Part shown: positions 2,041 through 19,018 of the stretch, in pieces
Numbering within the stretch: the stretch's first letter is position 1
How the letters are laid out: every line of letters starts with the position of its first letter
From: a virus
Virus record (IMG/VR): IMGVR_UViG_3300032092_000312
Span: 1 to 21,210 of that record
Reading direction: 5' to 3' (one strand)
DNA length: 21,210 bases
Position numbers and translations under genes: made by a program
The notes under the pieces: model-generated
Told to the model about the DNA's origin: nothing
Databases searched by the model: none
What the model saw: the letters and a program-made list of their open reading frames with translations, nothing else

Positions 2041-2312
2041 TAGTTGCAATTATTATATTAAGTTTAATGGTCGTGATCTTAGGATACACGACCTTTAACT
2101 TACTTAGAAAAAATGAAAAACAAGAAGATATCCTAGTAGGATATATGTCTTATTTGAATAAAGTATCTGATATAATTGAAATGTCAGATAAAAAACTTAA
2201 AGAAATAGATGCTAAAGAATCATTCAAATCAGATGATGAAGTAGGATTTTTCTTTGAATCAGTTAAACAAATCCAAAGTATTTTAAACCAATTCAATATT
2301 AAAAATCTATGA
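2037..2312 (+). CDS. Small membrane protein with a cytoplasmic helical tail
   Basis: 91 aa. Residues 1-20 are hydrophobic (IVAIIILSLMVVILG) and form one transmembrane anchor, followed by a positively charged stretch (LLRKNEK). This suggests the N-terminus outside and the body inside. Residues 25-91 are hydrophilic and helical with coiled-coil character. There is no catalytic motif and I do not recognise a family. Its stop and start overlap both neighbours (ATGA at 2037-2040 and 2309-2312), so it is made in step with the HD protein and gp55. It may tether something to the membrane, but the sequence does not show what. Confidence 0.8.
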   Translation: MIVAIIILSLMVVILGYTTFNLLRKNEKQEDILVGYMSYLNKVSDIIEMSDKKLKEIDAKESFKSDDEVGFFFESVKQIQSILNQFNIKNL

Positions 2313-3022
2313 GTGAAATAACAACAGTAGTTAAACCTAAAACAAGTGGAATGTATTTTACTCAAGAGACAGAAAATGCAATTATTGAATATAATAATAC
2401 TTTAGATTATAATTTAAGAGATAAAATTTATCGTGAACGTATTCATTATGCTTTTTTTAAATTAACAGAAAATATTATTCATACTTTTAAATTTTATTAT
2501 ACTGAGGTAAGCAATATTGAAGATTTACAACATGAGGTAATTTCATTTTTACTCTCTAAAATTCATCTTTTTAACCCAGAAAAAGGAGCTAAAGCATATT
2601 CATATTTTGGTACAATTGCTAAACGTTATCTTATTATTTCAAATACTAAAAATTATAAAAAACGAGTAGATAAAGCACCAATTGAAGAACTTGAATCAGA
2701 TGAGAAATATAGTTACTCGTTATCAGATGACCCTGTAGATAAACTTTCTTTATTTTTAGATGAATTCACAGGATATTGTTCTAAAAATATATATAAACTT
2801 TTTCCTAAAGAAAATGATGCTAAAATAGCAGACGCTATTCTAGAATTATTTCGTAAAAGAGAGAATATAGAAATTTTTAATAAAAAAGCACTATACATAT
2901 ATATCCGAGAAATAATTGATGTTAAAACTCCTAAAATCACTAAAATAGCTAATAAATTATATGATATGTTTAAAGAACATTATTATTTCTATTTAGAGAA
3001 TGGTTATACAAATTTTCCATAA
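2309..3022 (+). CDS. gp55: Late-transcription sigma factor, T4 gp55 family
   Basis: 237 aa, compared with 185 aa in T4. gp55 is a highly diverged sigma-70 relative that lets host RNA polymerase recognise the late promoter -10 box, working with the sliding clamp in T4. The N-terminal MYFTQETENAIIEYN and the segment at about residues 70-110 (EDLQHEVISFLLSKI, then FNPEKGAKAYSYFGTIAKR) match the sigma region-2 core-binding and -10-reading layout of gp55 proteins in marine T4-like phages. The middle (about 120-160) is acidic and Ser-rich and accounts for part of the extra length. The C-terminus ends in aromatic residues; whether this is a clamp-binding tail cannot be told by eye. The gene is last in an ATGA-coupled operon and immediately precedes the 16-kb late block it would activate. 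Confidence 0.87.
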   Translation: MSEITTVVKPKTSGMYFTQETENAIIEYNNTLDYNLRDKIYRERIHYAFFKLTENIIHTFKFYYTEVSNIEDLQHEVISFLLSKIHLFNPEKGAKAYSYFGTIAKRYLIISNTKNYKKRVDKAPIEELESDEKYSYSLSDDPVDKLSLFLDEFTGYCSKNIYKLFPKENDAKIADAILELFRKRENIEIFNKKALYIYIREIIDVKTPKITKIANKLYDMFKEHYYFYLENGYTNFP

Positions 3023-4810: not shown

Positions 4811-6397
4811 ATGGCTTATAATTTACCTTTACCCACTTCAGGACTTACAACAAACCAGTTAGGTTCTTTTGATATAGGATCTAATACTTTTGGCCCTAAT
4901 GAAAGTATTAATACTAATGAAGCTATAGAAAAAAATATAATTTTTGAAGGAATAATTATTGATAAAGACGCTAAACCCATCCCAGGTGTTACTGTTACTT
5001 TCTCACAAACCCCTGATCTTAATTCTCCCCCAGATAAAATTATTAAACCAATAACTAAAACTCTAACAACTGACTCAAAAGGAGAATGGTCAATAACATA
5101 TCCTTTAACAGATATTAATCTTAAATATGTTGATATAATATTTGTTAAACCTGAATATAAAACTGAAAAAGTAAAAAAACCACGAGTTACTAAAACTTAT
5201 CCTGTTGAAGAATTTACAGTTGAAAAAATTTCAACCTCAGAAAATGAACCTCCATATGAATATAGAGTTGGTAATGAAATTTTTAAAAACGCTGATCAAA
5301 TAAAAGCTAAGAAAGACGCTGATGATTATCAAACTAAAATGAGTAACCCTAAATATAAAGGGGCTAGTGTTGTAAAAATTAAGAAAAAATTAACTAAATC
5401 TCCTCCTATTAAAGAAGCTTTACAAAATTTAATTCAACCTATACTTGATGAAATAAGTGAAGCTGAAGTGAATCAATCTGATAAGATTAATAGTCGAAAA
5501 GTATTTCCTTTAGTTAAATTATCTTATTTAATAGCTATAGGTAAAGAAAAAGCTAAAGAAAAATTAATACCTTTTATAATGAAGATATTATTAAAATTTG
5601 GTTTACCTGTGGTACAAGCTATAGCTAATAAAATTTCTATTGATAAAGTTAAAGATCAAATCCTTTGCCCAACCATATCTGCCTTACAAAATTTAACTAA
5701 ACAACGAAATAAAATTACTAAACAAATAAATAGTCTTTACAAATCTATATCTACTATGGCTAAAGTATCTATGGGAATAGAAACAGCCATGTCCGCTTTA
5801 AAAATTGGTATCATAGCTATTGGACTTGTGCCTTTCCCCATGCCTCCAGCTGTACCTGTAGTAGCATCTAAACTTGAAGAATTATTAAAAAGATTTGGTG
5901 TTTTTGTGAATGTGGCTACATTAGCTTTAGCTGCTTTTGGTACTGTTTTAGGAATAATATTAGGTTTATTAAATGGATTGGATGCTCTTTTACAAATATG
6001 TCTTCAAAGTCAAAATGAAGCTATATCTGAAGGTAATGGAAATAATGGAGGTGATGGAAACAATGGAAATAATGGAAATAATAGAGGTAACGCTGGTCAA
6101 ATAGCTATTGAAACTTTTGAAAAAATTAATGATGAATTAAATTTATTTGTTAATGAGTCAACTGGTGTTAATAACCAAATTGTTATTAATAATAAACAAA
6201 CATATAAAGGATTTACTTTAAAATTAGTATTAGATCCTTATAGCCCATTACAATATCCTAAACGTTATGCTCAAGCATTAACATTAACAGGAGTCCCAGT
6301 ATTAAGAACAGATTCATCATTTGCGTCAGATCCTCAGATATTAATAGAACAATTAAAATTCCTTATAGATTCAAATCCTGATTTAACAGCTGGATAA
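4811..6397 (+). CDS. Putative hub-associated virion protein: carboxypeptidase-regulatory-like domain, hydrophobic helices, Asn/Gly linker
   Basis: 528 aa, a mosaic. After a disordered start, residues 43-120 form a beta-sandwich of the carboxypeptidase-regulatory-like type (FEGIIIDKDAKPIPGVTVTF, then a TDSKGEWSI turn). A Lys-rich stretch (120-200) leads to long helices (200-320). Two hydrophobic segments follow, residues 330-352 (IGIIAIGLVPFPMPPAVPVV) and 361-390 (FVNVATLALAAFGTVLGIIL). An Asn/Gly repeat at 408-427 joins them to a compact C-terminal domain (about 440-528). The gene directly abuts the spike gene and precedes gp25, so a hub role is likely. In T4 the hub also holds the tape measure gp29 (590 aa), and this protein could fill that place or insert into the inner membrane. 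I do not recognise a specific T4 homologue. Confidence 0.72.
   Translation: MAYNLPLPTSGLTTNQLGSFDIGSNTFGPNESINTNEAIEKNIIFEGIIIDKDAKPIPGVTVTFSQTPDLNSPPDKIIKPITKTLTTDSKGEWSITYPLTDINLKYVDIIFVKPEYKTEKVKKPRVTKTYPVEEFTVEKISTSENEPPYEYRVGNEIFKNADQIKAKKDADDYQTKMSNPKYKGASVVKIKKKLTKSPPIKEALQNLIQPILDEISEAEVNQSDKINSRKVFPLVKLSYLIAIGKEKAKEKLIPFIMKILLKFGLPVVQAIANKISIDKVKDQILCPTISALQNLTKQRNKITKQINSLYKSISTMAKVSMGIETAMSALKIGIIAIGLVPFPMPPAVPVVASKLEELLKRFGVFVNVATLALAAFGTVLGIILGLLNGLDALLQICLQSQNEAISEGNGNNGGDGNNGNNGNNRGNAGQIAIETFEKINDELNLFVNESTGVNNQIVINNKQTYKGFTLKLVLDPYSPLQYPKRYAQALTLTGVPVLRTDSSFASDPQILIEQLKFLIDSNPDLTAG
6032..6091 (+). repeat. Asn/Gly-coding tandem repeat
   Basis: Sixty bases built mainly from 9-bp GGAAATAAT-like units (at 6038, 6056, 6065 and 6074) encode residues 408-427 of the 528-aa protein, almost only Gly and Asn. 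It is a flexible linker and a likely site of length change by slippage. Confidence 0.8.
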
Positions 6398-6413: not shown

Positions 6414-6761
6414 ATGAAAATAGATTTATTAAAAAAGTTAATTAAAGAAGCAGTTCATGAGGCAATTCAAGAAGAAATTAAAGATATACTTCTTGAAGCA
6501 GTACGAGCTCCTAAAACTGTAGTTAATGAAAATGCTAATCCTATTCCTTATACTACAAAACCTTCAACCATCAACCCAGATATTAAACGTAATTTACGTA
6601 ATATGATAGGAGGTGAATTTGATGCTACTATAGTAGCTAATTCATCACATACTCAACCAGCTTATACTCCTCCTCCTATTAGCACAACAGGTGAAGGTTC
6701 AAGTTTACCTGGTGGTGAAGTAAGTTTAGATCAAATAATGGGATTAATGAGTACTAAATAA
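6414..6761 (+). CDS. 115-aa protein: amphipathic helix plus disordered tail, function unknown
   Basis: 115 aa. Residues 1-30 form a long amphipathic helix (LLKKLIKEAVHEAIQEEIK), with Leu/Ile/Val on one face and Lys/Glu on the other. Residues 31-100 are rich in Pro, Thr, Ser, Asn and Gly and look disordered, and a short C-terminal helix (LDQIMGLM) ends the chain. I do not recognise a family. The start at 6414 follows a TATTTATA box (6403-6410), and the stop overlaps the gp25 start as TAATG. The position between hub and wedge genes suggests a small assembly factor or linker in the baseplate; this is inference. Confidence 0.75.
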   Translation: MKIDLLKKLIKEAVHEAIQEEIKDILLEAVRAPKTVVNENANPIPYTTKPSTINPDIKRNLRNMIGGEFDATIVANSSHTQPAYTPPPISTTGEGSSLPGGEVSLDQIMGLMSTK

Positions 6762-7165
6762 TGGCTGTACAAATATCATATCGTCATCCTTTAGATATAG
6801 ATAAAAGAGTAGCTATAGGAGTATCTATTCCATTTAATGGTCCTGCTGTTTTTAATCCTATATATATAACTAGTGATCAAATTAAATCTAATATAATTAA
6901 TTTTATATTAACAAATAAAGGAGAAAAATTATTTCAACCTAATTATGGGGCTGATTTAAGAAGAATGATTTTTGAGAATATAAATGAAAATAATTTAAAA
7001 ACTTTAGAAATTAAATTAACTAATGATATACAAAATACTTTTCCAAATGTAAAAATTCAAAGTTTAATTTTTTCTCAACCTACTTTTCAAGAATATTCTT
7101 TACAATTAGATATAACATATACTTACTTTAATAATTCTTCTCAAAATATTCAAATATTATTATAA
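6761..7165 (+). CDS. gp25: Baseplate wedge subunit gp25
   Basis: 134 aa, matching T4 gp25 (132 aa). The family signature is visible at about residues 53-72: a GEKLFQPNYGADLRRMIFE block with the Gly-Glu-x-x-x-x-Pro-x-[FY]-Gly pattern shared by gp25, P2 gpW and type VI secretion TssE. The C-terminus is a beta-rich tail. gp25 connects the wedge core (gp6/gp7) to the first ring of the contractile sheath and helps start sheath assembly. The gene sits directly before gp6, an arrangement common in contractile tail systems. The start overlaps the stop of the 115-aa gene; no Shine-Dalgarno site is present. Confidence 0.93.
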   Translation: MAVQISYRHPLDIDKRVAIGVSIPFNGPAVFNPIYITSDQIKSNIINFILTNKGEKLFQPNYGADLRRMIFENINENNLKTLEIKLTNDIQNTFPNVKIQSLIFSQPTFQEYSLQLDITYTYFNNSSQNIQILL

Positions 7166-7172
7166 AATATAA

Positions 7173-9011
7173 ATGGCTACAGAAAATAGAGATATAAAAT
7201 ACTTAAATAAAGATTTTGGTGATTTAAGGAATGCTCTTATTGAATTTACTAAAACTTATTTCCCTAGCACTTATAATGATTTTTCCCCATCATCCCCTGG
7301 TATGATGTTTATGGAAATGTCAGCTTATATAGGTGATGTTTTATCATTTTATCTTGATAATCAAATTCAAGAAACTTTTGCTCAATACGCTAGACAAGAA
7401 AGTAATTTATATTCTTTAGCTTATATGTTAGGTTATAAACCTAAAGTAACAGGAGCTGCTACTGTATCTATTGATTTTTACCAAAAAATTCCTTTAGCTG
7501 GAGGTGAACCAGATTATGATTATGCTGTTTATATTCCAAGTAATATAGCTTTATCTTCTAATATAGCTGGTGCTTCAAATTTTTTATTAACTAATCCTGT
7601 AGATTTTTCTTTTTCTAGCCATCAAGACCCCACAGAAATAACAGCTGTTCCTCCTACAACACCTGGTGGTCCTGTTGAATATTATCTTCTTAAAAAAACT
7701 AAAGAAGCAGTTTCTGGGAATATTCAAACTAAAACATTTACTTTTGGAACAGCTCAGCGATTTCAAACAATTGAAATTAATGATTCTAATATTATACAAA
7801 TATTAGATATTGTAGATAGTGATGGTAATATATGGTATGAAGTACCTTATTTAGCCCAAGAAATGGTTATAGATAATATAACTAACACAGAGACAGACTC
7901 AGGAGAGGTACCTTATTTATTACAATTAAAAAAAGTACCTAGAAGATTTGTATCAAGATTTATCTCACCTTCAGTTCTTCAAATTCAATTTGGAGCAGGC
8001 ACAACCACAGCTAATGTTGAAGAAGAAGTAATCCCTAACCCAAATAATATTGGATCAACCTTAACAAGAGGAATTTCCCCATCTTTTGTTAATACAGCTT
8101 ATGATCCAGCTAATTTTTTGTATACTAGCACATATGGTATTTCTCCTTCTAATACTACTTTAACTATTAGATATTTAACAGGAGGTGGAGTATCAGCTAA
8201 TATACCTGCTAACTCTCTTAACACTATATCTAACACAACAAGTATTACTTTTCCATCAGGTATAAGTGGAGTGTTAGCTGAAGAAATTAAAAACTCAGTT
8301 GTAATTAATAACCCAGTAGCAGCTAGTGGTGGTCAAAATGGAGACACAGTTGAGGAATTAAAACTTAACTCATTAGCAGCTTTTGGTACTCAATTAAGAA
8401 CAGTGACTCAAGCTGATTATATTATTAGAGCTTTAAGTTTACCATCTCAATATGGATCTTTAGCTAAAGTCTATGCTGAACCAGAAAAACTAGAAAATTT
8501 AACCCCAGGTGAATCTTTATCAGCTACAAACTTATATGTTTTAGCTTATGATAGTAATAAAAATTTAAAAGCAGCTTCACCAAGTTTAAAAAATAATTTA
8601 AAAAAATACTTATCTCAATATAGAATGGTTAATGATTCTATTAAAATTAGAGATGGTTATGTTATTAATATTAGTGTTGGATTTGATATAATTGTATTAC
8701 CTAATTTTAATAATAATGATGTGCTGCTTAGATGTGTGAATGCTATTAAAGGTTATTTTAATATTGATAAATGGCAAATGAATGAACCTATTATTTTAAA
8801 AGATATATATATATTATTAGATAAAATAAATGGTGTTCAAACAGTTAGTGATGTGAATATCACCAATTTAATAGGAGGTAATTACTCTCCTTGGGCATTT
8901 GATATACCTGGAGCTACAAGTGGGAATGTAATTTATCCTTCTGTGGATCCAATGATCTTTGAAGTCAAATTCCCAGATATCGATATTAAAGGACGCGTTG
9001 TATCTTTATAA
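7173..9011 (+). CDS. gp6: Baseplate wedge subunit gp6 (baseplate J-like)
   Basis: 612 aa, compared with 660 in T4. The N-terminus (NKDFGDLRNALIEFTKTYFP, then SPGMMFMEMSAYIGDVLSFY and a LGYKPK block) is characteristic of gp6 in T4-like phages. The middle and C-terminal half have the baseplate-J plan, including DTVEELKLNSLAAFGTQLRT followed by VTQADYIIRAL (about residues 392-418). Near the end there is a helix-strand motif in which WQMNEPIILKDIYILLDKIN matches the usual J-family C-terminal block. gp6 dimers form the inner ring of the baseplate and drive its conformational change on host contact. It lies seven bases after gp25 and shows no truncation. Confidence 0.93.
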   Translation: MATENRDIKYLNKDFGDLRNALIEFTKTYFPSTYNDFSPSSPGMMFMEMSAYIGDVLSFYLDNQIQETFAQYARQESNLYSLAYMLGYKPKVTGAATVSIDFYQKIPLAGGEPDYDYAVYIPSNIALSSNIAGASNFLLTNPVDFSFSSHQDPTEITAVPPTTPGGPVEYYLLKKTKEAVSGNIQTKTFTFGTAQRFQTIEINDSNIIQILDIVDSDGNIWYEVPYLAQEMVIDNITNTETDSGEVPYLLQLKKVPRRFVSRFISPSVLQIQFGAGTTTANVEEEVIPNPNNIGSTLTRGISPSFVNTAYDPANFLYTSTYGISPSNTTLTIRYLTGGGVSANIPANSLNTISNTTSITFPSGISGVLAEEIKNSVVINNPVAASGGQNGDTVEELKLNSLAAFGTQLRTVTQADYIIRALSLPSQYGSLAKVYAEPEKLENLTPGESLSATNLYVLAYDSNKNLKAASPSLKNNLKKYLSQYRMVNDSIKIRDGYVINISVGFDIIVLPNFNNNDVLLRCVNAIKGYFNIDKWQMNEPIILKDIYILLDKINGVQTVSDVNITNLIGGNYSPWAFDIPGATSGNVIYPSVDPMIFEVKFPDIDIKGRVVSL

Positions 9012-16391: not shown

Positions 16392-17345
16392 ATGTCTTTT
16401 ACAAGATTAGATCCTCAAGATTTTTTAATTAGTGTTGATTCAGTTACAGCTCCTGTCTGGTCAAATACTTCTTCAGTCAATTTAACTTCTTTTACAACTA
16501 ATAATACTCAAGTTAGTAGTGATAGTGGTCAGTATTATGTTAATGCTTATAATGATAATGAAGTTCAATTCGCTGTAGCTTATGGGCATAGAAATGGATC
16601 TGGATCTATATATTATTATGCTGGAGCCCCAGGTTTAAGTCCTACAAAAACAGTTTATGATCAATTTAAAAATATTATATATGGTGAAGACGAAGGAGCA
16701 GTGTTTAACTTTTCAGGATTTGAATCAGATGATTTTTATGCTATAGTATTTAATAGAGCTCGTTATAAACAAGCTTTACTTCCAGGTAGTATTCAAATTA
16801 GTGGTTTAGTGAGTAGTGTTAAAATAACAGATAATAGTGCTATATCAACAGTTGTAGATTACTTAAACTGTGGTAGAGTATTTAGATTAGGATCTGGTAG
16901 TTTTGGAGATGGTAAAATGCCTTCATCAGCAACAAATGGTTCATATGGATTTTTACTCCCTGATATAGGAGTTATTCTCTTAAACCCAACAGCTTGTGGT
17001 ATAACTACTAATAGAAATGCTAATACAGATGGAAATAATCCTCAAACTGTTATTAATGAAATCTCAGATTTCTATGCTAATTTTCAAGAATCTATAACTT
17101 CAGATTTTGTATTTGTACGAGCTAGAAATGCTGAATACAATTACTCATGTAATCCTAGTTTCTTTCAATCTAGTAGTTTAGGTTTAGTTTTATATCCTGA
17201 TTTTGCTCAGAACCCTCAAACTTTTATTACTACAATAGGTTTATATAATGATAATAATGAGTTATTAGCAGTAGCTAAATTATCAAAACCACTTAAAAAA
17301 GACTTTACTAAAGAAGCTTTAATACGTGTTAAATTAGATTTTTAA
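16392..17345 (+). CDS. Tandem virion paralogue A (317 aa)
   Basis: 317 aa, first of three neighbouring related genes. Shared blocks with paralogue C (18170-19018) are the start (LDPQDFLISVDSVTAPVW against IAPEDFVFSNEIITDTCW), the middle (YKQALLPGSIQ, then LNCGR and LLPDIGVILLN), and the end from residue 240 (FVFVRARNAEYNYSCNPSFF, then ITTIGLYNDNNELLAVAKLS). The end block is also present in paralogue B. The fold looks all-beta apart from the ends; there is no signal peptide and no enzyme motif. I know the terminal block only as a recurring feature of phage structural proteins. It probably forms part of a ring or fibre-attachment structure, possibly in a hetero-oligomer with B and C. Confidence 0.78.
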   Translation: MSFTRLDPQDFLISVDSVTAPVWSNTSSVNLTSFTTNNTQVSSDSGQYYVNAYNDNEVQFAVAYGHRNGSGSIYYYAGAPGLSPTKTVYDQFKNIIYGEDEGAVFNFSGFESDDFYAIVFNRARYKQALLPGSIQISGLVSSVKITDNSAISTVVDYLNCGRVFRLGSGSFGDGKMPSSATNGSYGFLLPDIGVILLNPTACGITTNRNANTDGNNPQTVINEISDFYANFQESITSDFVFVRARNAEYNYSCNPSFFQSSSLGLVLYPDFAQNPQTFITTIGLYNDNNELLAVAKLSKPLKKDFTKEALIRVKLDF

Positions 17346-17349
17346 ATGA

Positions 17350-18168
17350 ATGGGTGCTTTCAAATCATTAACAGGTCAAGATGTTATTATATCTCCTTTA
17401 GTAGTTTATGGTAACTCACTTACAGGTTTTTCTCTTAAAGGTAAAAATGTTCCTTTTGGTTCCCCAGATGATATCTCTAACTCAAATGGATTCCCATCAG
17501 CATCATTAATTTATACTTCTATTAAACAATTATATTACAGTAATAATTTACCTAATCCTGAAGCTACATATAGTAGTTCTTTAAACGTTCGTAGATTTGA
17601 TAATTTCATTCAAAGTGATCTTTATGCTCCTATGAATTTTCCAACTGGATATGGAGATGAAATAACAGTGATCAGTATAAATAAACCTTTCTTTGGGGAT
17701 TATTTAAAACCTAGTAGTTTAAATATCGCTGGAGCGGTTGATGATGGAGAAGGAAATATGAGAGATGGAGATGTGAATGGCCTTATAGTTGGTAGAGTTA
17801 TTTATTCTCATGGTATAATAATTTTTACTGATGGAAGAACAGCTAACGCTAGTACTTTCCAATCCGCTAAAACTATTTATGAGACCCAATATAAATGCAC
17901 TATTAGACCAGATGAATTTAATTACTCACAAAATCCTACTATATTAAAAACAACTCGACCAACTAACCCTATTTCAGCTAATGGTCAACCTGTTGATTTT
18001 GGAGGAGTTGTTGAAGATTTTGTAACTGGATCATCTTTTGCTCCATATATAACAGCTGTAGGTTTATATGACTCTAATAATGTATGTTTAGCTGTTGGTA
18101 AATTAGCTTTACCTATACCTACAAGTAGAACAACAGATATGAATATAATTGTAAGTTTAGATAGATAA
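17350..18168 (+). CDS. Tandem virion paralogue B (272 aa), most diverged
   Basis: 272 aa. It shares with A and C the C-terminal pattern FNYSQNP (residues 190-196), ITAVGLYDSNNVCLAVGKLA and the closing strand (MNIIVSLDR). The first half differs: it lacks the ALLPGS and LNCGR blocks but keeps the short Gln-Asp start motif (TGQDVIIS) seen as PQDFLIS in A, and a hydrophobic strand (HGIIIFTDG) where A and C have LLPDIGVILL. It begins four bases after the stop of A and ends one base before C, so all three are probably read from one message. The divergence suggests a separate role within one complex, not a recent copy. The ATG at 17346 is out of frame. Confidence 0.75.
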   Translation: MGAFKSLTGQDVIISPLVVYGNSLTGFSLKGKNVPFGSPDDISNSNGFPSASLIYTSIKQLYYSNNLPNPEATYSSSLNVRRFDNFIQSDLYAPMNFPTGYGDEITVISINKPFFGDYLKPSSLNIAGAVDDGEGNMRDGDVNGLIVGRVIYSHGIIIFTDGRTANASTFQSAKTIYETQYKCTIRPDEFNYSQNPTILKTTRPTNPISANGQPVDFGGVVEDFVTGSSFAPYITAVGLYDSNNVCLAVGKLALPIPTSRTTDMNIIVSLDR

Positions 18169-18169
18169 C

Positions 18170-19018
18170 ATGCCTTTACAAAAAATAGCACCTGAAGATT
18201 TTGTTTTTAGTAATGAAATAATTACTGATACATGCTGGAGAAATGCTAATGGTCGTCTTTTAGATGATACTTCTCCATCTTTTAATTCTTTTACTTTCAC
18301 AAATGGAAATCCTAATGCTTCTCCTAGTAATAATATGACTATTACCACTTATGGAAGTACTGGAAACCCACAATTTAGTGTAGCTACTGTAGATGGAAAT
18401 AATGGATTAGGAGCCATACAAAATATTGTTACTGGCTGTAAAAATACCCCTATAAGTTGGGGAGGATCTAATAAAACTAGTTTAACAGTAGTATCAATAG
18501 CTAGAGGAAGCTACAAATCAGCCCTACTACCAGGTAGTTTTCGTCTAGGGACTCTTACAGATAATAGTAATATGGGCCAACCCCAAATATTAAACTGTGG
18601 TAGAGCATATAATGTAGTTACTGGAACTGTATTACCTGGAGGTGGATTTACTTATGGCTTCTCATCCACACCTGAGCAGATACAAGGACTTTTCCTCCCA
18701 GATGTTGGATTAATTTTATTAGATAGTTTTCCTGGAACTAGTGATTTTACTCTTAGAACAGAAGACCCCACCCCAACCACTCAAGTTTTTATTAGAGCTA
18801 GAAACTTTGAATATAATTATTCTATGAACCCTAGTTTTATTTCTGGTAGTACTGGAGATTTATGGTTTAAACAATTTGATTATCATCCTCAAACTTACAT
18901 TACTTCTATTGGTTTATATAATGATGATGGTGTATTAATGGCTACAGCTAAATTACCTCAACCATTTAAAAAAACTTTTGAAACAGAATTATTAACAAGT
19001 GTTACTTTAAGATTTTAA
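18170..19018 (+). CDS. Tandem virion paralogue C (282 aa)
   Basis: 282 aa, close relative of A at both ends and in the middle: PEDFVFSNE at the start, YKSALLPGSFRLG and ILNCGR in the centre, LFLPDVGLILLDS, then VFIRARNFEYNYSMNPSFI (residues 206-224) and ITSIGLYNDDGVLMATAKLP near the end. It is about 35 residues shorter than A; the difference lies in loops between the shared blocks. It is the last gene of the virion block, followed two bases later by the GIY-YIG endonuclease gene. No terminator separates them. Confidence 0.78.
   Translation: MPLQKIAPEDFVFSNEIITDTCWRNANGRLLDDTSPSFNSFTFTNGNPNASPSNNMTITTYGSTGNPQFSVATVDGNNGLGAIQNIVTGCKNTPISWGGSNKTSLTVVSIARGSYKSALLPGSFRLGTLTDNSNMGQPQILNCGRAYNVVTGTVLPGGGFTYGFSSTPEQIQGLFLPDVGLILLDSFPGTSDFTLRTEDPTPTTQVFIRARNFEYNYSMNPSFISGSTGDLWFKQFDYHPQTYITSIGLYNDDGVLMATAKLPQPFKKTFETELLTSVTLRF

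Follow-up and report, generated by a model that had tools for sequence, protein, structure and literature searches.

What does a contractile-tailed phage do with a large modular protein that is encoded directly beside its spike? We address this question for a 528-residue protein encoded in a 21,210-base stretch of DNA (the window), and because the window is an entire virus record, ideas about the protein were tested on its relatives. The original prediction had placed this chain with the hub or spike, next to a spike that lacks a lysozyme, and had proposed that it acts either as a tape measure or as a pilot that pierces the inner membrane. The open reading frame is genuine, with an ATG that abuts the stop codon of the spike gene (TAAATG), and the parts that had been named in it can all be recognised (Table 1).

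Table 1. Coordinates of the 528-residue protein, its parts and the neighbouring tail genes in the window.
Feature	Position (residues of the 528-aa protein)	Strand	Basis or remark
Probable central spike gene, 473 aa	3389..4810	+	OB-like part and beta-strand shaft, no lysozyme match
528-aa spike-adjacent modular protein	4811..6397	+	Open frame, ATG, family profile matches, gene order
Transthyretin/CarboxypepD_reg-like beta-sandwich, front half	4928..5404 (40-198)	+	AF2, structural match, weak Pfam
Helical connector preceding the hairpin	5408..5659 (200-283)	+	AF2
Conserved antiparallel helical hairpin	5666..6031 (286-407)	+	Cys286 at 5666-5668, Cys397 at 5999-6001
Charge-free hydrophobic stretch, second hairpin helix	5912..5980 (368-390)	+	Not family-wide
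Asn/Gly linker, family-variable	6032..6091 (408-427)	+	Sequence, alignment
Conserved C-terminal alpha/beta domain	6188..6379 (460-523)	+	Profiles, AF2
115-aa gene after the core protein	6414..6761	+	Between spike and gp25 in 158/158 distinct core loci
gp25-like baseplate wedge gene	6761..7165	+	PF04965, 28.3 bits (cut-off 27.2); phrog_261, E 9e-15
gp6-like baseplate wedge gene	7173..9011	+	phrog_6, E 2.2e-17; 47.8% identity to the immuto baseplate wedge protein

The AF2 model of the protein was built from 55 sequences, and the best of five reached a pLDDT of 81.2 and a pTM of 0.66 (the other four had pLDDT values of 69.0-76.1). Confidence varies along the chain: residues 1-37 and 454-459 fall below 50, the linker near 411-430 has values of 54-58, the turn of the hairpin near 321-350 values of 66-82, and the base of the hairpin values of 86-95. 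The strands modelled at residues 42-139 and 186-193, beside which residues 149-178 form a small strand-helix piece, match transthyretin-like domains, in agreement with the carboxypeptidase-regulatory-like sandwich that had been predicted. Structural re-alignment paired 81 residues within 43-198 with the transthyretin-like domain of carboxypeptidase D (5aq0_B, Z 11.1, 2.0 A), with 9h68_C tying at Z 11.1. The Pfam CarboxypepD_reg score of the window protein is 19.3 bits, under the curated cut-off of 32.3, and two relatives exceed that cut-off (L096 with 33.5 bits and L168 with 33.8 bits). The front half is thus modelled as a transthyretin-like sandwich. Behind it the long helices occupy residues 200-283 (in several pieces), 289-338 and 347-407, the last two forming a hairpin with a Pro-rich turn near 345. 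They are followed by the Asn/Gly linker, most of which is missing from the closest relative (P0004, 510 aa), and by the compact C-terminal domain, modelled with strands and a helix at 463-521. PHROG and Pfam gave no peptidoglycan-cutting domain in the window protein, and no PAAR family was among its Pfam matches up to E 1.

Because the beta-sandwich fills the rows returned by Foldseek for the whole model, which are dominated by intradiol dioxygenases, the hairpin and the C-terminal domain were barely probed for their fold by this route. Two helical rows from VIA (Z 10.5 and 10.1) are mimics of virus fusion cores and fall within the stated noise for helical bundles. When the family profile was run against PDB sequences, the best match was a helical stretch of the archaeal S-layer protein SlaB (8qox_B, E 5.5e-5), the remainder being at E 0.02 or worse and chiefly helical proteins, among them chemotaxis receptors; the window sandwich is matched structurally by 8qox_B as well (Z 10.0), and we take both matches as probable instances of common folds rather than as homology. 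The best structural matches in BFVD were two proteins of uncultured Caudovirales phages, A0A6J5KV62 (“Uncharacterized”, E 9.5e-9) and A0A6J5LXM8 (“DUF3597 domain-containing”, E 3.4e-8), each aligned in part, with TM-scores of 0.23 and 0.24 of the query.

The 473-residue product of the upstream gene, described as a lysozyme-less spike in the original prediction, indeed has no lysozyme match in PHROG or Pfam, and a PHROG lysis match was likewise absent from all 26 spikes examined. Its match to DUF2345 in Pfam has an E value of 0.0024, under the cut-off. The model of the spike is poor (pLDDT 62.4), possibly owing to the intertwined, trimeric shaft that spikes of this kind have, and Foldseek returned nothing for it at E 0.001, the best match being a processome protein at 0.13. 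Structural re-alignment gave nine contractile-system baseplate or spike chains among 50 rows, all at Z below 7 and so below the clear level: P1 (6.5), Streptomyces (6.1), A-1(L) (5.9, rmsd 21.8), Pa193 and PhiTE (5.7), phiKZ and VgrG (5.6), AFP (5.5) and Anabaena (5.2). The top row was a human CHMP4B hairpin (Z 6.7), and the others were ribosomal and helical proteins. The DUF2345 match, the gene order and these weak structural matches together support the identification of this neighbour as a spike without lysozyme.

Comparisons of the window protein with other viral sequences place it in an uncharacterised family of mostly uncultured contractile-tailed phages, encoded between the spike and gp25. 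A tblastn search of 50,697 phage records with the window protein found the isolates of Flavobacterium phage immuto alone, through a match of 60 residues (46.7% identity, E 6e-6). The matched protein has 371 residues and lies in the gene order spike, family protein, small protein, gp25, gp6; the hairpin and C-terminal parts are common to the two proteins, and their fronts differ. In the same records the window, immuto, L039 and L058 queries retrieved either nothing or the isolates of immuto, under the name “DNA repair ATPase”, and the query L096 matched 279 records, of which the 20 listed match its LysM/peptidoglycan-binding region alone. The family is widespread among environmental viral contigs, a scan of which gave at least 522 stretches with a relative, and a scan of genome contigs gave no cellular relative. 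A search of the window's own record with PF06841 was silent, as was its control.

The slot was also approached through gp6, that is, through loci that were not selected via the protein itself. From a gp6 scan of IMG/VR the best 80 of at least 596 loci were kept, so that the counts describe the nearest gp6 relatives. Counting as core any match at E 1e-3 to either of the two profiles (hairpin or C-terminal), we found it in 56/56 of the loci whose DNA reaches 1.5 kb or more beyond gp6 on the upstream side, and all 44 loci that contain both spike and gp25 have it between these two genes, the figure of 44 counting presence and the position coming from a separate reading of gene order; in one of these 44 (L084) the core sits in the spike ORF itself. 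The profiles were seeded from eight sequences and iterated on the same loci, and two members (L045 and L047) match the hairpin profile only. Among all distinct loci the core is present in 158 of 160, a figure biased upward because most of these loci were fetched through the protein itself. The two misses are more distant relatives. In Microcystis phage Mel-JY01 the slot is occupied by a 176-residue protein and an endolysin-like one (phrog_181, E 9.9e-33), and in the uncultured phage LR756508 by ORFs of 175 and 223 residues. The family comprises 163 distinct complete ORFs, including two fragments of 70 and 212 residues, and the alignment comprises 55 distinct complete ORFs, after removal of the L002 duplicate and of ORFs truncated at contig ends.

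What is constant in this family, as judged from the profiles and the alignment, is a core made of a two-Cys helical hairpin and a compact alpha/beta domain. Cys286 and Cys397, which had escaped the original prediction, are the only residues invariant in 55/55 aligned members, and 149 of the 163 distinct complete members have exactly two cysteines. The spacing between the pair ranges from 111 to 159 residues across the alignment, and the Pro-rich turn keeps close to its midpoint (mean offset +2.3, sd 3.5, range -3 to +8). In the AF2 model both cysteines lie where the hairpin opens, and simple arithmetic on its helices, mirrored round the turn, sets residue 286 opposite about residue 399. We infer from the model and the invariance that Cys286 and Cys397 may be joined by a disulfide, which would clamp the hairpin at its open end; other parts of phage tails have disulfides, as reported for Milano (PMC10811340).

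The suggestion of a tape measure has some appeal, in that the protein is rich in helices with hydrophobic stretches and one member (L077) weakly matches a tape-measure PHROG (E 0.004), but the genomes of relatives argue strongly against it. The original prediction had proposed, as a check, to look for a separate tape measure in the rest of the window's genome; in the complete genome of a relative, immuto, the family member is encoded at 80.4-81.5 kb and an annotated tape measure of 1006 residues (gp037) at 150.8-153.8 kb, after the sheath and tube. The region at 147-154 kb contains sheath, tube and hub subunit, all with PHROG matches, together with the tape measure, which has no PHROG match and was so named by the depositors; sheath and tube are about 66 kb from the family member. 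G013, G014, G015 and G002 each encode a homologue of this tape measure 1.8-2.9 kb downstream of a sheath gene, and Mel-JY01 has one as well (E 5.7e-15). The first three are long contigs in which the core protein is also present, G013 encoding a member (L119, 503 aa) that aligns almost end to end with the window protein at 43.5% identity; G002 ends before the slot. Neither a sheath nor a tape-measure match was obtained in G001, G016, G017 and G018, which are fragments and make up half of the eight long records searched, and immuto gp037 gave no credible match in the 21,210 bases of the window (E 4.0). Complete members also range from 245 to 854 residues with their end domains swapped, and none of the 44 gp6-retrieved slots has the position shortly after the tail tube gene that a tape measure would suggest. 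A separate tape measure and the core protein are encoded in the same genomes, and therefore the family protein, on this genomic comparison, is not the tape measure in immuto, G013, G014 and G015. We reject this role for the family and regard it as vanishingly improbable for the window protein.

The second suggestion, that the hydrophobic hairpin leaves the hub after the spike has penetrated, inserts in the inner membrane and opens a channel for DNA, depends on how unusual the hydrophobic stretches are. The segments that had been noticed are present: hydrophobic 19-mers occur in the window protein within 322-352, within 368-397 and also at 253-271, and the second hairpin helix carries a charge-free run of 29 residues and a 19-mer with a KD value of 2.31. 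Values above 2.0 between the two cysteines were found in 13/55 members. However, their clustering does not exceed what composition would give. When residues 286-397 of the window protein were shuffled, 97% of shuffles contained a 19-mer above 1.6, and across the family shuffles gave such a 19-mer in 68%, against 34/55 observed; even a run as long as 29 arises in 13% of window shuffles. No such 19-mer lies between the cysteines in 21/55 members, charge-free runs of at least 18 in the second helix are confined to 29/55, and five of the six aligned immuto-like members have a run of only eight there. Transmembrane-like helices are accordingly not conserved in the family beyond the shuffled expectation, and because the hydrophobic stretches follow from composition a general pilot role is unlikely. 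For the window protein itself we consider a pilot improbable; in its own lineage the 29-residue charge-free run makes such a function possible, without support family-wide.

The part of the protein in front of the hairpin is, by profile matches, exchangeable, being either absent or made of transthyretin-like (CarboxypepD_reg), endolysin-like, or LysM and PG_binding modules. The range of 245 to 854 residues (two fragments aside) mostly reflects sequence preceding the hairpin, and many members of 274-290 residues have nearly no front half. A transthyretin-like (CPD-like) domain was found by our own profile in 34/163 members and not in the other 129, and PF13620 matches at E 0.01 in 14/55 aligned members. 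An endolysin-like module was assigned by phmmer to 7/163 distinct members. Three of these match the phrog_90 endolysin (L020, E 6.6e-12; L069, E 2e-14; L130, E 7e-14), and the other four (L168, L160, L123 and L140) are counted through phmmer matches to L020 and L160, their front ends having only PHROG matches of unknown function (phrog_37890 and phrog_30077) and no endolysin name. A phmmer search of the PDB with the first 175 residues of L020 gave no match. LysM and PG_binding were seen in a single member, L096, with LysM, CarbopepD_reg_2 and PG_binding_1 all above their cut-offs.

Modules are also found next to the core gene rather than within it. The gap between spike and core holds more than 150 bases of extra DNA in 24 of 158 core loci, and in 20 of these 24 the extra DNA encodes a protein with a CPD-like domain by our own profile. 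In L054, a separate gene of 342 residues with a CPD-like domain (23.1 bits, below the cut-off) precedes a short core gene (245 residues) and seemingly holds the part that corresponds to the front half and connector of the window protein.

Several individual loci deserve mention in their own right. In L175 (3288-4271) and L189 (3262-4266) genes between spike and core join a transthyretin-like domain to DUF5675 (above cut-off), with a sub-threshold Tlde1_dom match, a pairing reminiscent of type VI secretion system (T6SS) cargo. Some inserted proteins had looked OmpA-like by eye, an identity dropped when Pfam reported none. L162 (1824-4268) has a swapped front end that PHROG and Pfam did not identify at the place where L160 and L168 carry the endolysin-like module, and in L155 (2117-3392) the spike-side insert gene, whole in L152 and L154, is split into two ORFs. 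In L084 (3865-6018) a single ORF of 718 residues comprises both spike and core, joined, by eye, inside the transthyretin-like domain; only one contig shows this fusion, which might have arisen by deletion or through faulty assembly.

We favour the reading, at a probability of roughly 0.6, that the family protein serves the contractile tail as a carrier associated with the spike, which would dock by its core and present interchangeable modules to the cell envelope. The constant core would sit on the spike or the central hub with its hairpin stapled at the open end by the putative disulfide, and on sheath contraction the front half, facing the envelope, would be driven through with the spike and would then bind or cut peptidoglycan. 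This is the best explanation because a constant core beside the spike is combined with swapped fronts, a minority of which carry wall-cutting or wall-binding modules. The proposed contact with the spike follows from the gene order and the one fused ORF, and to this extent the hub or spike association in the original prediction is supported, in contrast to its tape-measure and family-wide pilot roles. The payload role itself is inferred from a minority of members, endolysin-like in 7/163 and CPD-like in 34/163. Since its front half contains no recognised enzyme, the window copy most likely binds or positions something (the wall, the spike or other cargo) and would not cut. Against the carrier reading stand the seven members in which extra sequence follows the C-terminal domain instead (L053, L066, L067, L077, L093, L094 and L256), and the coreless slots of Mel-JY01 and LR756508.

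The same constancy of the core could mean that the protein is purely structural, the core joining the spike to the wedge (gp25/gp6) or plugging the tube lumen above the spike, with the front half an ornament or folding aid. The near absence of a front half in many members fits this, as does the position beside gp25, and a hairpin as long as that of the AF2 model could bundle in the lumen. However, some chains that contain the core also carry endolysin-like, LysM or PG_binding modules, which suggest a task at the envelope, as do the DUF5675 proteins at the neighbouring insertion site, and we find a purely structural role rather doubtful. More tentatively, the carrier could be one case of a general tail-tip dock for cargo, always beside the spike, in which a disulfide-stapled hairpin and a C-terminal clamp hold freely swapped front ends that cut the wall, bind it or act as adaptors, and the staple is perhaps opened by the reducing interior of the host, releasing cargo or spike; such a dock might correspond, in phages, to the loading of T6SS effectors by way of transthyretin-like domains.

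The carrier reading has parallels in known contractile systems. T6SS spikes are reported to use transthyretin-like domains for effector loading (PMC7376260, PMC7043769), and the VgrG proteins described there (E. coli VgrG1 and P. aeruginosa VgrG2b, VgrG4b and VgrG5) resemble the phage family in bringing such a domain to a contractile spike, although in VgrG it is C-terminal on the spike itself and in the phages it belongs to the product of the next gene, together with the hairpin core. We regard this likeness as one of working principle and fold class, and do not claim homology. In phage T4 the lysozyme lies inside the spike protein gp5, at residues 174-339 as reported in PMC4576200, and gp5 with the PAAR tip gp5.4 brings spike and wall-cutting to one place in the tail, as may be the case in this family; here, in contrast, the spike has no lysozyme match and it is the neighbouring protein that carries an endolysin-like module in some relatives.

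The closest named protein is immuto gp115 (YP_010114568.1), which occupies the same slot between the spike gp116 and gp114/gp25/gp6 and has both the two-Cys hairpin and the C-terminal domain. It differs from the window protein in its length of 371 residues, in a front that by eye is charged and coiled-coil-like, with no transthyretin-like domain, and in its second hairpin helix, which is not hydrophobic (L006 row). The protein (L002 17077-18192, NC_055915 80392-81507) is deposited as “DNA repair ATPase, RecN”, a name that is probably wrong because gene order and profile put gp115 in the spike-adjacent family. None of the records met gave the family an informative name. No description of the family was found in an abstract-level search, nor was the hairpin core seen described, and a limited literature search for this domain order found none; the parts are of known kinds, and their combination and the two-Cys core appear new. 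If the carrier reading is true, these contractile tails separate the needle from the tool that breaches the wall and can swap the tool while leaving the needle unchanged, phage spikes are linked to the transthyretin-like loading domains of T6SS, and immuto gp115 is a directly testable protein.

Three further observations concern other genes of the window. A gene at 2309-3022 resembles sigma-70 region 2 (Pfam E 8e-4; late-sigma PHROG E 0.01, both weak), and by eye a sigma-like gene stands ahead of the tail cassette wherever a locus extends far enough. Three neighbouring paralogues of 317, 272 and 282 residues, with no PHROG match, lie at 16392-19018; the first and third are 33% identical (E 6e-38) and the middle one is more weakly related (E 1e-7 and 2e-5). 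The adjacent gene at 19021-19497 matches phrog_447 “NAD synthetase” (E 2e-30) as well as homing-endonuclease families, and because of the latter matches and of a GIY-YIG protein in a similar position in Mel-JY01 the NAD synthetase label may be wrong.
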